NCBI RefSeq assembly: GCF_000317675.1
Contig: NC_019776.1
Span: 1-64,000, forward strand
Direction of reading: 5' to 3'
Length of the DNA stretch: 64,000 nt
Source: Cyanobacterium aponinum PCC 10605
Lineage (GTDB): Bacteria > Cyanobacteriota > Cyanobacteriia > Cyanobacteriales > Cyanobacteriaceae
Numbering within the stretch: the stretch's first letter is position 1; every line of letters starts with the position of its first letter. Under the pieces are notes generated by a model, which was given only the letters and a program-made list of their open reading frames with translations, had not been told where the DNA came from and did not search any database. The position numbers were made by a program, and so were the translations under genes. Shown piece after piece: positions 10,972 through 61,031 of the stretch.

Positions 10972-13900
10972 CTATATCTGTTGGTTAGCAAGTAATAAAC
11001 TAAATATTTCATAAGGTTTTATTAAAGTATCTTCGACATTCGGTGCATTATTTTCTAAGACATTAATTCTTTTGATTATCTTTAAATCAAATTCATTTTT
11101 AAAAGTTAATAGACTTGACTTTCCTTCACATTCATAACCACGAATAATCATTTGAGAAGGATTTTTTTCTGCTTGTTTAAATGTCATTAAAACAAAATTA
11201 TTTTCCTCAATATTTATAAATTCATGATTAGTCTTTAAACCTAAATCTTTTTTCTCTCTTTTTTCTGTTAATAAAGCTAATAAAGATATATTAAATTCAT
11301 AGCCCTTTTGTACTGTTTTTCCTTCTTTCCAACCCTGTTTATGTCCATAAATACCATAACTAAATTCGTGAAAGCCTCGATCGCATTTTGGATCTGGCCA
11401 TTTCGGACTTCTTAATAAACTCAAACGTAATTGATTAGGTTTAGCAGAATAACCATATTTACAATCATTGAGTAAACTTACCCCATAATTATCATTATTA
11501 TCGGTTAAATCTGCCCAGTGATGGCCATAAACTTCCCATTGTGCCTTTTCCTCATCTGTCTGAGGTTTAGTAGTGCGTTGGATGTTGCCACAGGCGATTT
11601 CATAGGTGACATAATCACTTTCTAAATTGAAAGGAAAACTTACTTTTAAGAGGGTATAATCTTCTTGCCAATTAACCTTATTTTTTATTTTTAAAATCGG
11701 TGACTGAAAATCAAGAATATAGTCTTGGATAAACTCTGATTTGTTATAAGTTTTAATAACTCTAATTCTCTGTCTTAATATGCCTTTTTCTAACCAGTTA
11801 ATTGACACTAATTGAGGGTTATCTAATCGATAATTTTCATAATTAGGATCTATATTCCAAGCATCCCAATATTGCCCTTTATCCTCGAATAATTGTAACT
11901 CGTTTCCCTCTCCTTTAATAATTTCTCGTTGGTTGACTTTGTCAAATATCCCGTCAATATTACCTGTTTTTTTATCAATAATTACCCGTAAAGAATCATT
12001 CTCTAAAATATAAGTAATATCTTCTTCAATTATTTCCATTCCATTGTGTGGAACAGGCATCTTACCCGTATTTATATCCTCTTTTAGGATAGTATCATGA
12101 TCTTCTCTAAAACCCCTTAATAAGGGAAGGATTTTATTGGTTAAATAAAAGGATTTATAGCCAACACTAGGTACATTTTCAGCAAGAAATAACAACTTAC
12201 CTTCATGGCTTATTTGTGTTAATAACTCTTTTCCTTCACCATCATAAATTTTATATTTTTCTCCCTCTATATCCAATTCAACTATTTCTGACCTTATCCA
12301 ATTCAGGCTATTAAAAATCGTTACTTCATAATCATATTCTAAATTAAAATTAGGTAATTTAATATAAGATGCGATCGCATTTAAGCTGTTAGATAAAATA
12401 TTATTAGTAGAGGTAATTATTTCTTGATAAAGTTGATTAGCTTCTGTAAAAACAGGAGTTATAGAAGTGCCGGGTAAAATATCATGGAATTGATTTAATA
12501 ATAGTTTTTGCCAATTAGCCTCTATTTGAGATTGTATGTGATTATCAACTTGATACTCTGGAATAAATTGATTATGTAAAATAGTGGCAATAGTAGAGAA
12601 TAATTCCGCTTGATATAGTAACTTTTCACAATAACGATTTTGATATTTTTGATCTCCATGAGTAGTATAACAACCCCGATGTAATTCTAAGTAAAGTTCA
12701 CTATTCCACACAGGATAATTTTGAGGAGAAATAGTACTAATTTTGTTTAAGTAATCTTCCGCAGTGCTAAACTTAATTTTAGGGAAAAAAGGAGAGTCAT
12801 CATAACGTTGGGCAACCTCTAGCATATCACGAGTGGGTCCTCCGCCGTGATCTCCAACCCCGGGCAACCAGAAAATATCTTTTAATCCCGTTTGTTTTTC
12901 CCAGTCAATACTGTAGTTAGTCATGGTGATAGGGTTTGTATCCATAACCCCCGTGACATTGGGCGGAGACATAAGAGTGAGAATTTGACTACCATCAGGA
13001 GATTGCCACCAAAAGCAACCATAAGCAAATTTATTCGTATCATTCCAATGCAATTTACCTGTCACAAAATATTCAATTTCTGCTTGTCTTAAAATCTGCG
13101 GTAATTGCCACGGAAAACCAAAGGTATCAGGAAGCCATGCAACTTTATTATATTTCCCAAACTTTTCCTTAAAATATTTTTGTCCATATAATAACTGTCT
13201 AACTAAAGATTCTCCGCTAATTAAATTAACTTCAGGCTCAATCCACATTCCCCCCAATATTTCCCATTGAGAAGATGCGATCGCATTTTTTATTTGATTA
13301 AATAATAATAAATTATGAGACTCAATCCATTGATATAGATACGCAGTGGTATGACCAAATGTTAAGTATTTATATTCTTTTTGAAGATTTAAAACAGAAT
13401 TAAAAGTTCTTTGAGCGACTTCATAAGTTTCCTCAAGAGTCCATAACCAAGCCATATCTAAATGAGCATGACCTAAAGGATAAAAACATCTTTCTTTGAT
13501 ATAATTACTTAGGGGTAAAAGTTTATCTCTTAGATTAGCTAATTCTTGATGAAAAAGAGACTTATTATCAACATACTCCCAATTTAATTCTTGAATTGCC
13601 AGATCTAAAAATGGTTTTTTGTCAGGGTGAAAATTATCAAGATATTGACTTAATACGGTTAATTCATTTGCTACAAAACTGGGATCAATTTCTCCTTTTT
13701 TTGCTTCATAAACACATCGAGAAATCATCAAACCACCAATATCATGATTAGGACTAATTAAGCGAATTGTGATTAAAAATTCTTGGTGAGGCTTAACATT
13801 TTCTGTAACTAAAAGACGGCAAGAAGAATCAAATAAATCCCCTTCAACTTTTAACTGACCATTAACAAAAATTTGAGCAGATTCTGCCCACCATGTCAAG

Positions 13901-14142
13901 AAAAGTCTTAAATCCAAACCTTCGAGAGGATAATTGCTATCTAAACTATGGGGAATAATTATTTTTTGAGCAAACCAACGAACTTTATTACCTTTTTCCC
14001 ATACTAAATAGCCTTTCTCATTGATAACTGCATTTTGCCAATTTTGCTCAATTATTTTTGGTGATTGTGCATAGTCTTTATCACTAAAATACCAGTTATT
14101 TTTTATATCTAATTCGGTTAATAATCGTAATTTATTAATCAT
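10972..14142 (-). CDS. Alpha-mannosidase, glycoside hydrolase family 38
   Basis: The 1056-residue GH38 enzyme hydrolyses terminal alpha-mannose. Motifs seen: GHAHLDMAW at 224-232 (zinc-ligand His and Asp), LGGMWIEPE near 297, WLPDTFGF at 336-343 with the nucleophile D339, and HDILPGTS in the mid domain. An N-terminal beta-domain (about 40-130) precedes the catalytic barrel and the long C-terminal beta-sandwiches follow, as in the bacterial and eukaryotic class II layout. There is no signal peptide, so it is probably cytosolic, acting in glycan recycling. Oddly, residues about 668-702 look like repeat DNA captured in frame (TGKMPVPHN, encoded by a palindrome at 12053-12069). Confidence 0.9.
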   Translation of the reverse strand: MINKLRLLTELDIKNNWYFSDKDYAQSPKIIEQNWQNAVINEKGYLVWEKGNKVRWFAQKIIIPHSLDSNYPLEGLDLRLFLTWWAESAQIFVNGQLKVEGDLFDSSCRLLVTENVKPHQEFLITIRLISPNHDIGGLMISRCVYEAKKGEIDPSFVANELTVLSQYLDNFHPDKKPFLDLAIQELNWEYVDNKSLFHQELANLRDKLLPLSNYIKERCFYPLGHAHLDMAWLWTLEETYEVAQRTFNSVLNLQKEYKYLTFGHTTAYLYQWIESHNLLLFNQIKNAIASSQWEILGGMWIEPEVNLISGESLVRQLLYGQKYFKEKFGKYNKVAWLPDTFGFPWQLPQILRQAEIEYFVTGKLHWNDTNKFAYGCFWWQSPDGSQILTLMSPPNVTGVMDTNPITMTNYSIDWEKQTGLKDIFWLPGVGDHGGGPTRDMLEVAQRYDDSPFFPKIKFSTAEDYLNKISTISPQNYPVWNSELYLELHRGCYTTHGDQKYQNRYCEKLLYQAELFSTIATILHNQFIPEYQVDNHIQSQIEANWQKLLLNQFHDILPGTSITPVFTEANQLYQEIITSTNNILSNSLNAIASYIKLPNFNLEYDYEVTIFNSLNWIRSEIVELDIEGEKYKIYDGEGKELLTQISHEGKLLFLAENVPSVGYKSFYLTNKILPLLRGFREDHDTILKEDINTGKMPVPHNGMEIIEEDITYILENDSLRVIIDKKTGNIDGIFDKVNQREIIKGEGNELQLFEDKGQYWDAWNIDPNYENYRLDNPQLVSINWLEKGILRQRIRVIKTYNKSEFIQDYILDFQSPILKIKNKVNWQEDYTLLKVSFPFNLESDYVTYEIACGNIQRTTKPQTDEEKAQWEVYGHHWADLTDNNDNYGVSLLNDCKYGYSAKPNQLRLSLLRSPKWPDPKCDRGFHEFSYGIYGHKQGWKEGKTVQKGYEFNISLLALLTEKREKKDLGLKTNHEFINIEENNFVLMTFKQAEKNPSQMIIRGYECEGKSSLLTFKNEFDLKIIKRINVLENNAPNVEDTLIKPYEIFSLLLANQQI
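12053..12069. repeat. Palindromic repeat inside the mannosidase gene
   Basis: ACAGGCATCTTACCCGT folds into a 7-bp stem (with wobble pairs on the coding strand) around a 3-base loop. It is the same unit as the intergenic ACAGGCAAGATGCCTGT at 59103-59119. Translated on the minus strand it gives TGKMPV, in frame. Confidence 0.65.
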
Positions 14143-58426: not shown

Positions 58427-58443
58427 ACAGGCGTTTTGCCTGT
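58427..58443. terminator. Hairpin ACAGGC-GTTTT-GCCTGT after the phosphotransacetylase-like gene
   Basis: A 6-bp stem with a 5-base loop, followed on the plus strand by ATTTATT. It may end transcription from either side of these convergent genes. The unit is close to the ACAGGCAAGATGCCTGT palindrome family seen at 59103-59119. Confidence 0.5.
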
Positions 58444-59102: not shown

Positions 59103-59119
59103 ACAGGCAAGATGCCTGT
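59103..59119. repeat. Palindromic repeat ACAGGCAAGATGCCTGT
   Basis: A 7-bp perfect stem with the AGA loop lies between the peroxiredoxin start and the end of the IS element. The same unit is found inside the mannosidase gene (12053-12069), and a shorter relative at 58427-58443. Confidence 0.7.
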
Positions 59120-59205
59120 TTCACGATGAAAAAAATCGTAAGTTAATTTGGATTTAAGTTATTTTGTGATTATGAAAGAAAAGCCATTGGTACAGGAATT
59201 ATGAA

Positions 59206-60459
59206 CTACGCATTTCCGCTACGCTGAGAAATGCGTTTCTGACGCTTCTTCGCCCCAATTTGCCTCATGTTTCCACACTCGGTAGAGCTTGACGACTCTG
59301 CGTCTAAAGAGGCACGTTCCATACCCCTGATGTAATTTTCGATGACCATAGCGGCAGCAGTATCACGATTAGTAGTAAATCCACAGTTTTCGCACTTATG
59401 CACCCTCTCAGATAAAGATTTTTTCTTTTGATGTCCACATTTAGGACAAGTCTGAGAGGGTTTTACTTTGCGAGTAGGAATTTCTATGTACATTCCTCCT
59501 GCTTCTGTTACCTTATAAGCAATCATGGACTTGAGTTCTCCTATCCCTACATCTAAGATAGAGCGATTAAGTCCTGTTTTTTGCTTTTTACGTTTACTAC
59601 CTTTTTTAGCTTTTTTGGTCATTCCCTTGATGTTAAGTTGCTCTGTACCGATGAAGCTATTACGGCTAACGATTTCTACCGATACTTGATGATGCCAATT
59701 GTGCCGTTGACGAGCAACTTTACTTTGAATTTTACCTACGGCTTTAGCAGACTTTTTCCATCTACAAGAGGCTTTTATCCCTTTACGGGGATTTCTTTTT
59801 TTCCTAGCTTTCTTTGCAACTTTATTGATTTTTTGTTGAGATTCTTTTAAAAATCGAGGATTTTCGATAAAATTCCCCGATGAATCTGCTATAGCATCAT
59901 TTACCCCAAAATCAAGCCCTATTACTCCCTTATCCGTTTGATAGCGAGTAGGGATACACTCTACCGTGATTGATGCGTACCATTTTCCTTGTTTGTACAG
60001 AATCGTACAGGTTTTAGGTTCACCCCAATCTCTAGCTTGTCCACGCATCTTAATTTCTCCTAAATTTGAGATTTTAAGCCTACCGTGCTTTCCGTTACTT
60101 AGAGCCTTCCATCCTGCTTTACAAGGATATGTCCATCCTCTGTAATGTCTAGCAGACTTGTACTTTGGATAACCCGACTTTAGTTTAAAAAATCGCTGAA
60201 AGGCAAAGTCAACACGCTTTACCGTTGCTTGGAGAGCATGAGAACCTAGCTTCTTGTATTCTATCCATACTTCTTTAAACTCAGGTAAAGAATTTTGTTG
60301 CTCAAAATAAGTCACACTTCTACCATATCGCTTATATTGCTCCCTGCGATGAGTGATACACGCATTATAGAGATCCTTGTGCAATCTCCGCCAATAGTGC
60401 ATTTTCTCGTTTTGAGCTTTATTCGGATATAGTCTAAATGTAACTCTTTTTATAGCCAT
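59206..60459 (-). CDS. tnpB: RNA-guided endonuclease TnpB
   Basis: 417 residues. The ancestor-type of Cas12: N-terminal RNA/DNA-binding region starting AIKRVTFRLYPNKAQ, split RuvC domain with D183 (GLDFGVNDA), E273 (GTEQLNIKGM) and D366 (TNRDTAAA), and a zinc finger with C338/C341 and C356/C359. TnpB is directed by a right-end RNA to cut donor or empty sites after transposition and so keep the element. Its stop codon lies within 3 bases of the right-end hairpin. All catalytic residues are present. Confidence 0.95.
   Translation of the reverse strand: MAIKRVTFRLYPNKAQNEKMHYWRRLHKDLYNACITHRREQYKRYGRSVTYFEQQNSLPEFKEVWIEYKKLGSHALQATVKRVDFAFQRFFKLKSGYPKYKSARHYRGWTYPCKAGWKALSNGKHGRLKISNLGEIKMRGQARDWGEPKTCTILYKQGKWYASITVECIPTRYQTDKGVIGLDFGVNDAIADSSGNFIENPRFLKESQQKINKVAKKARKKRNPRKGIKASCRWKKSAKAVGKIQSKVARQRHNWHHQVSVEIVSRNSFIGTEQLNIKGMTKKAKKGSKRKKQKTGLNRSILDVGIGELKSMIAYKVTEAGGMYIEIPTRKVKPSQTCPKCGHQKKKSLSERVHKCENCGFTTNRDTAAAMVIENYIRGMERASLDAESSSSTECGNMRQIGAKKRQKRISQRSGNA
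59208..59236 (-). ncRNA. Candidate omega-RNA/right-end hairpin of the TnpB element
   Basis: A perfect 9-bp stem ACGCATTTC/GAAATGCGT with an 11-base loop overlaps the 3' end and stop of tnpB. In TnpB elements the guide RNA covers the tnpB 3' end and right end and takes its guide from the flanking sequence, which here would be the bases just below about 59200. The RNA itself is inferred. Confidence 0.5.
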
Positions 60460-60500
60460 CTATAGTCAAAAAGTTTTGCTAAGATATTCGTTATTATATC

Positions 60501-60929
60501 ATGCAGTTGGGGGATTGTGTATTGAAACCCAGAAAAAGCTCTCATAGTGTTTTTAGCGTTCACTTACATCTAGTTTTTGTCACTCATTATCGGAGAAAAG
60601 TATTAACAAAAGAAATGATTGTAAGACTAGGAGAAATGTTAGAACAAGTAGCAAAAAAGTTAGATTGCTTTATCTTAGAATTTAACGGTGAACCAGACCA
60701 TGTACATATTTTGCTAGACTTGCATCCTAAAAATGCTATCTCCACAGTCGTCGCTTGTCTAAAAAGCTCAACGGCTAGAATGCTAAAAAAGGAATTTCCT
60801 CAAGAAGTAAAAAAATACTATTGGGGGAAAGTGTCTTTCTGGTCTGGTTCTTATTACGTAGCTAGTACGGGTGGTGCGACTATCGAAAAGCTCAAAGAAT
60901 ATATAAAAAATCAGGAAGGGGGAAAATAA
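60501..60929 (+). CDS. tnpA: IS200/IS605 transposase TnpA (HUH Y1)
   Basis: 142 residues. Y1 single-strand transposase: HLHLVFVTHYRRKVL near the start, the HUH pair in PDHVHILL (H67, H69), KYYWGKVSFWSGSYYV, and the catalytic Tyr in EYIKNQ (Y134). Intact length for the family. It cuts and joins the hairpin-marked ends of the element. The gene is divergent from tnpB, with a 41-base gap between the starts. Confidence 0.95.
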   Translation: MQLGDCVLKPRKSSHSVFSVHLHLVFVTHYRRKVLTKEMIVRLGEMLEQVAKKLDCFILEFNGEPDHVHILLDLHPKNAISTVVACLKSSTARMLKKEFPQEVKKYYWGKVSFWSGSYYVASTGGATIEKLKEYIKNQEGGK

Positions 60930-60949
60930 AATTAGGTGTTGCTATCCTT

Positions 60950-60978
60950 CCCCAATCCGCTTACACCTGAGATTGGGG
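60950..60978. other. Left-end hairpin of the IS element
   Basis: Perfect 8-bp stem CCCCAATC/GATTGGGG with a 13-base loop, 20 bases past the tnpA stop. TnpA recognises such structures on the single-stranded DNA. On the minus strand it is preceded by TTGAACGTCC, in which TTGAA(C) could be the target/TAM, but this is only a guess. Confidence 0.65.
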
Positions 60979-61031
60979 ACTGCCGCAACGGACGTTCAAT
61001 TTTTATTTTTAATTCTTAATTCTTTCCATGA

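Follow-up and report, generated by a model that had tools for sequence, protein, structure and literature searches.

The window analyzed here is the whole stretch of 64,000 nt with which contig C1 (4,114,099 bp) begins, in a genome of 4,176,973 bp. On its minus strand, positions 10972-14142 encode a GH38 alpha-mannosidase-like protein of 1056 amino acids, with Pfam matches to Glyco_hydro_38N, Alpha-mann_mid, Glyco_hydro_38C and Glyco_hydro38C2. This gene is host to a decayed REP-like palindrome copy at 12053-12069 (minus strand), translated as TGKMPV in the frame of the mannosidase ORF. The translation places the peptide at residues 692-697, in agreement with the initial annotation (about 691-697). 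A GTGG guide tetranucleotide can be read in the sequence at 12048-12051 (plus strand), one base ahead of the hairpin stem. The copy is part of a 72-bp block of 24 codons (12021-12092, minus strand) that DNA and protein alignments find absent from the sister species, G001. Elsewhere in the window there are intergenic copies of the palindrome, one at 58427-58443 (minus strand), also present in G001, and an exact one at 59103-59119 (plus strand), which folds as a hairpin and occurs in G001 with one change.

The sequence at 12053-12069 is ACAGGCATCTTACCCGT and that at 59103-59119 is ACAGGCAAGATGCCTGT; a comparison on the minus strand shows 2 differences in 17 bases. By chance, 0.07-0.10 matches with up to 3 mismatches would be expected in the whole window. 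Across the genome we found 37 sites matching ACAGGCANNNTGCCTGT with at most 2 mismatches and none matching the reversed control pattern. The consensus is ACAGGCAAGATGCCTGTTTcACgg, from 31 aligned sites that include one, at 3719331, counted as a chance match. Family members have a 7-bp stem and a 3-nt loop, ACAGGCA-TCT-TGCCTGT (the hairpin written ACAGGCATCTTGCCTGT), and one base before the stem stands a 5' guide, GTGA, GTAA or GTGG. Two intact copies fold into this 7-bp stem and 3-nt loop at -6.6 and -7.5 kcal/mol, with 1 of 200 shuffles as good in each case. Guides at 40 distinct sites of this genome, chance sites included, are GTGA (16), GTAA (6), GTGG (3), GTAG (2) and others (13), so that 5 of the 40 carry a strict GT[AG]G guide; the GTGG of the GH38 copy is of this type. 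At least 5 of the 37 sites look like chance matches within conserved genes, lacking the consensus flank; presumably these genes encode AspRS, an RNase II-like protein, an oxidoreductase, a transglycosylase-like protein and a helicase-like protein. An in-gene match with 2 mismatches is therefore weak evidence by itself. The copies at C1 921818 and 2082549 (L112 and L116) are 96% alike over 73 nt and show, by eye, a partial end symmetry, AGAC...GTCT, possibly that of a larger composite element.

The GH38 copy retains the AAGATG center, the TTCCAC flank and the GTGG guide. Scored as a held-out site against a motif derived from 26 further copies, which themselves score 32.5-48.6, it reaches 24.2 bits. 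The highest score in simulated DNA was 17.5 (2 Mb on a single strand, shorter than the genome at 4.18 Mb), and three of the chance-like sites score 7.8, 11.2 and 16.1, the remaining two being absent among the top scores listed. Read from the sequence, 5 of the 7 stem pairs are left, and the copy folded alone does no better than shuffled sequence (87 of 200 shuffles equally good). It is thus a genuine but decayed member of the family. The relationship to the palindrome at 59103-59119 that had been proposed from the sequence holds; the description of 12053-12069 as itself a palindrome fits the family and not the present state of this copy, which is a poor one.

The GH38 protein aligns over its full length with that of G001, a member of the same genus; of 1029 aligned residues, 918 are identical. 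A single internal indel separates the two proteins, a segment of 24 residues that holds TGKMPV and is placed at residues 684-707 by the DNA alignment and at 687-710 by the protein alignment. A gap in relatives at about residues 668-702 had been suggested as a check on an insertion, and a gap is indeed found at this slightly later position. The length of the block is divisible by three, no stop interrupts the frame used, and the reading frame is kept. Folded as a whole, the block does better than all but 1 of 200 shuffled sequences, as two hairpins in decay would. It is also longer than the 24-nt consensus, and no dispersed match to the remaining bases improves on E = 0.27, which leaves part of the origin of the block unexplained. 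A search of a plasmid collection with the linker DNA gave no match. No clear target duplication borders the block, at most a GATA on both sides by eye in the DNA alignment; for an insertion of the IS200 type, a target-site duplication is not expected. The event was probably a gain in the present lineage rather than a loss in the sister, a polarity that depends on this single sister genome.

Directly upstream lies a second repeat, of the CCCTTATTAAGGGG type, at 12107-12126 (minus strand), from which the residues LLRGFRED (674-681) had been said to derive. A CCTTATTAAGGGG repeat is present there with 0 mismatches to the pattern, and it resembles, over 42 nt at 81%, a copy that the CobN gene carries here (IPPLLRGVRGDQ in CobN). 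The pattern is less specific than the palindrome: with 2 mismatches allowed, it gave 21 matches and the control 9. G001 has this repeat directly upstream as well, so that it is older than the 72-bp block and lies outside it; the repeat origin of LLRGFRED stands, and its union with the TGKMPV segment does not.

The block falls, in the predicted structure, in a loop that connects two beta strands ahead of the Glyco_hydro_38C domain. An AlphaFold2 model computed with 35 sequences has a mean pLDDT of 86.3 and a pTM of 0.86, and only two segments fall below a pLDDT of 50, residues 396-398 and the linker, 672-707. This low confidence supports a flexible loop short of proving one, since gappy alignment columns would give low values too. 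The Pfam layout and the predicted disordered loop agree with the earlier placement of the segment at a domain junction of the C-terminal region. The added residues are probably neutral. The linker has 40 amino acids here, compared to 14-51 in the 12 other family genomes read, 11 of which have 32 or fewer. Across 109 of 110 GH38 loci (L101 has no readable linker), its length ranges from 11 to 96 amino acids with a median of 18. Among the 102 distinct linkers left after 7 duplicates were removed, inverted repeats were not enriched overall (8 below 0.05 against 5.1 expected; median 0.875), and we therefore do not regard the GH38 linker in general as built from repeats. Strong palindromes do occur in a few, namely L066 and L068 (Moorena), L089 (Oscillatoria, GGACAGGCGGGACGCCTGTCC) and L045. 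The GH38 linker of L025 (G050) encodes VGAKHSRM...RECFAPTN, which we take to be a GTAG-type cyanobacterial repeat.

DNA of the IS200/IS605 type (59125-60999), with a TnpB-like ORF at 59206-60459 (minus strand) and a TnpA at 60504-60914 (plus strand), directly adjoins the palindrome at 59103-59119. We rejected the idea that the palindrome is part of this element: G001 has the palindrome at this place and lacks the IS200/IS605 DNA, and at two further places in the genome that score equally for TnpA (L237 and L238) there is no palindrome.

Of the ten matches to Y1 transposases in the genome, the one at about 3,460,690-3,461,187 is an intact gene for a REP-associated tyrosine transposase (RAYT). 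Its 166-residue product matches NF047646 (REP_Tyr_transpos) at 108.9 bits, the cut-off being 80, and contains HVH (residues 74-76) and, later in the sequence, YIQLNP, the HUH motif and the catalytic tyrosine motif of RAYTs. Four family palindromes lie within about 200 nt of this gene. The 3' copy, into which the reading frame runs, is oriented opposite to the two outer upstream copies and like the nearest upstream palindrome. One of the flanking copies folds poorly (5-bp stem; 30 of 200 shuffles as good).

This association extends to relatives. Among the best 30 RAYT loci from this genome and 59 relatives, 12 are close and 18 distant. The palindrome is found no more than 400 nt away at 7 of the 12 close loci, our own included, with 18 copies in 23 flank windows, compared to none in the 36 windows beside the 18 distant loci and none in 116 windows used as controls. 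Of the five close loci that remain, four show hairpins in which the CATCTTG center is the same and the arms differ, such as GCGAGCATCTTGCTCGC; the fifth, L255, has neither the palindrome nor a hairpin with this center. In two order relatives, G048 and G046, the copies next to the RAYT mostly have a GTGG guide (L247, 5 of 5 copies; L248, 5 of 7).

Exact copies of the palindrome occur in 20 of the 59 relatives, with up to 168 per genome. They are found in 6 of the 11 relatives that have a RAYT match with E < 1e-25 among the matches listed (G008, G010, G012, G046, G048 and G056) and in 14 of the 48 others, including G015 (60 copies) and G036 (77 copies). Leaving our own genome out, the presence of a RAYT thus predicts that of the palindrome only weakly. 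Of the 13 copies in G001 with up to 1 mismatch, 8 are in stretches that match copy-bearing stretches here, the only part of this genome that the comparison covered, and 5 are not. There is no G001 entry among the RAYT matches listed. Upstream of the same gene start that adjoins the RAYT locus here, which we take to be that of ileS, G001 has a palindrome relic and no RAYT, and in G010 a RAYT fragment lies at a contig end beside what appears to be the same start. These observations suggest that the RAYT was lost in G001. A second RAYT-like gene of our genome, at about 1.967 Mb, scores 65.8 bits and so falls short of the cut-off of 80. It carries GTAGGGGCGAACGGCCGTTCGCCCCTAC inside its reading frame (L243:1441-1468), in a manner that resembles the 'double foot' REPs that PMC6006769 describes for cyanobacterial RAYT genes.

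The palindrome family most likely represents a REP (repetitive extragenic palindrome) element. It has in common with the REP/RAYT systems (REPtrons, REPINs) a short, dispersed and mostly intergenic hairpin and a RAYT gene that it flanks, and, as in those systems, the arms vary between RAYT relatives while the center is constant. It differs in its guide, which is mostly GTGA or GTAA in this genome and mostly GTGG beside the RAYTs of G048 and G046. RAYT genes have been described as flanked by two inverted REPs (PMC2817692). The published rule places GTAG or GTGG 0-2 nt from a stem of 7-20 nt with a loop of 2-5 nt, and the same source also notes REPs of some RAYT classes without GT[AG]G (PMC6006769).

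Insertion of such elements into reading frames has also been described. PMC3733652 reports codogenic REPs in many genes of many bacteria, as well as recB genes of two Xanthomonas species in which different REPs occupy roughly the same position. REP insertions that keep the frame have been found in RAYT genes of subclass 2.4, which is abundant in cyanobacteria, and REP insertions are thought to be harmless in flexible linkers or loops (both PMC6006769). The palindromic elements of Rickettsia (RPE) are likewise palindromic repeats found in frame in protein genes (PMC3733652), and the GH38 copy resembles them in this. Because codogenic REPs and the tolerance of linkers are already published, we would regard the GH38 case as another instance of in-frame REP insertion. 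It differs from the cases in that literature in its host, a cyanobacterial GH38 enzyme, and in the sister species that displays the site without the block. What it would add is the likely transposase tied to the repeat and the loops of other core enzymes discussed below. RPE-1 is longer than the palindrome studied here. Titles and abstract openings on cyanobacterial in-gene or small repeats and on RAYTs name neither the palindrome nor its host genes; outside this set stands the most relevant work, that of Elhai et al. 2008, which, going by its title, reportedly treats very small mobile repeats of cyanobacterial genomes.

Other enzymes of this organism also carry in-frame copies. Motif scores are 21.8 for the copy in GltB (held out) and 27.0 for that in a GltB paralogue. 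The CobN copy scores 42.3, but it was a member of the training set, and the Mfd copy, at 14.0, does not reach the simulated maximum of 17.5 and is counted for its tandem form only. The Mfd linker has VGQAS repeats here as opposed to IPPNPPLKGGNNG in G001. A second CobN linker has an IPPLLRGVRG repeat common to both organisms. The first CobN linker, which holds the palindrome copy, measures 30 here and 31 in G001, about the same length, so that no clean insertion can be demonstrated there.

The clearest series is in GltB, in the linker between the GATase_2 and central domains, where 7 of the 12 family genomes read (GltB of G006, L164, stands outside these counts) have perfect palindromes. These are ACAGGCTTCTAGCCTGT in this organism and in G008, which has a second one in addition, and CCCC-type palindromes in G001, G009, G011, G012 and G002. 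In G003, G005 and G010 the linker is longer or repeat-like without such a palindrome, and in G004, G007 and seven order relatives it has 26-29 residues, two of the seven order relatives having hairpins of another kind. Sister species thus differ in the palindromic repeats of some enzyme loops and share those of others. One could imagine that the loops of GltB, Mfd, CobN and GH38 are standing landing places at which unrelated short palindromes come in, degenerate and give way to others, owing to a preference of transposition and not just to selection, and that they supply raw material for new protein segments. We think this improbable; if it were true, sister species would carry different repeat-born peptides at one and the same site.

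A second loop of GltB shows repeats of its own. In L151 (G000:C1, about 295,890-296,050), the loop, situated before YIPPLLAIGAVHQ, holds a repeat-like cluster of 92 nt. This length is not divisible by 3, and the frame ends at 665 amino acids; either a true frame break or, the stretch being C-rich, an error of sequencing may be the reason. At the 18 other loci read (L164 left out), this loop is a multiple of 3 in length, and several of them have repeats. In L153 (G010) it contains an in-frame tandem array of a 27-nt unit encoding EAGSLNHI-type peptides, with GCAGGAAGCCTG half-palindromes in the array.

We consider it likely that a RAYT moved a REP copy, together with adjoining DNA, into the GH38 linker, and that the insert survived because it was a multiple of three in length, free of stops and placed in a flexible loop, and is now decaying. 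On this reading, the 72-bp block with its REP would have entered the loop after the split from the sister species. The enzyme that copied it would be the HUH tyrosine transposase (RAYT, or TnpA_REP) at about 3,460,690-3,461,187 or a relative of it, a role suggested by sequence and by the copies that flank its gene. The mannosidase would tolerate the block given its length, its open frame and the unstructured loop, and once tolerated the copy would drift. The initial annotation had seen in the peptide a mobile repeat entering genes, and the palindromes beside the RAYT gene and the other in-gene copies support this, with the movement itself deduced from them.

A different route into the linker, by recombination or template switching with another copy, by slippage, or by the TnpA of an IS200/IS605 element, appears unlikely. 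Such a route is favored by a block that exceeds one REP, by the IS200-type TnpA genes in the genome and by repeat units duplicated in tandem within further linkers (Mfd here and GltB of G010). However, the palindrome is absent from the other IS200/IS605 copies and present at the 59103 site of G001 without the element, and the RAYT is the transposase that has the palindromes beside it. Still somewhat less probable is that the block is ancestral and was deleted in G001, in which case the repeat would be of the same REP kind and simply older. The polarity does depend on one genome of the same genus, one whose lineage seems to have lost the RAYT and hence does lose such DNA, and a decayed copy fits an older event; against this, the short linker is the commoner state in the family (32 amino acids or fewer in 11 of 12, compared to 40 here), and an exact, in-frame removal of 72 bp is the less simple event. 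That a fast-evolving linker came to resemble the palindrome by accident at TGKMPV is very improbable, since, for all the freedom of linker length across the 109 loci, mostly without an inverted repeat, and the at least 5 apparently accidental sites among the 37, the held-out score lies above every simulated one and above those of the listed chance-like sites, and the copy keeps its center, flank and GTGG exactly inside the lineage-specific block.

A REP insertion by a RAYT, as preferred here, gives the TGKMPV palindrome of cyanobacteria a likely class, the REP elements, and a candidate enzyme, the RAYT. The GH38 gene provides a pair of sister species with and without the insert in a metabolic enzyme, and GltB is the stronger example, with different palindromes in one linker in 7 of the 12 family genomes read. 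For annotation and structure modeling, such peptides would be better treated as traces of mobile DNA than as conserved domains.
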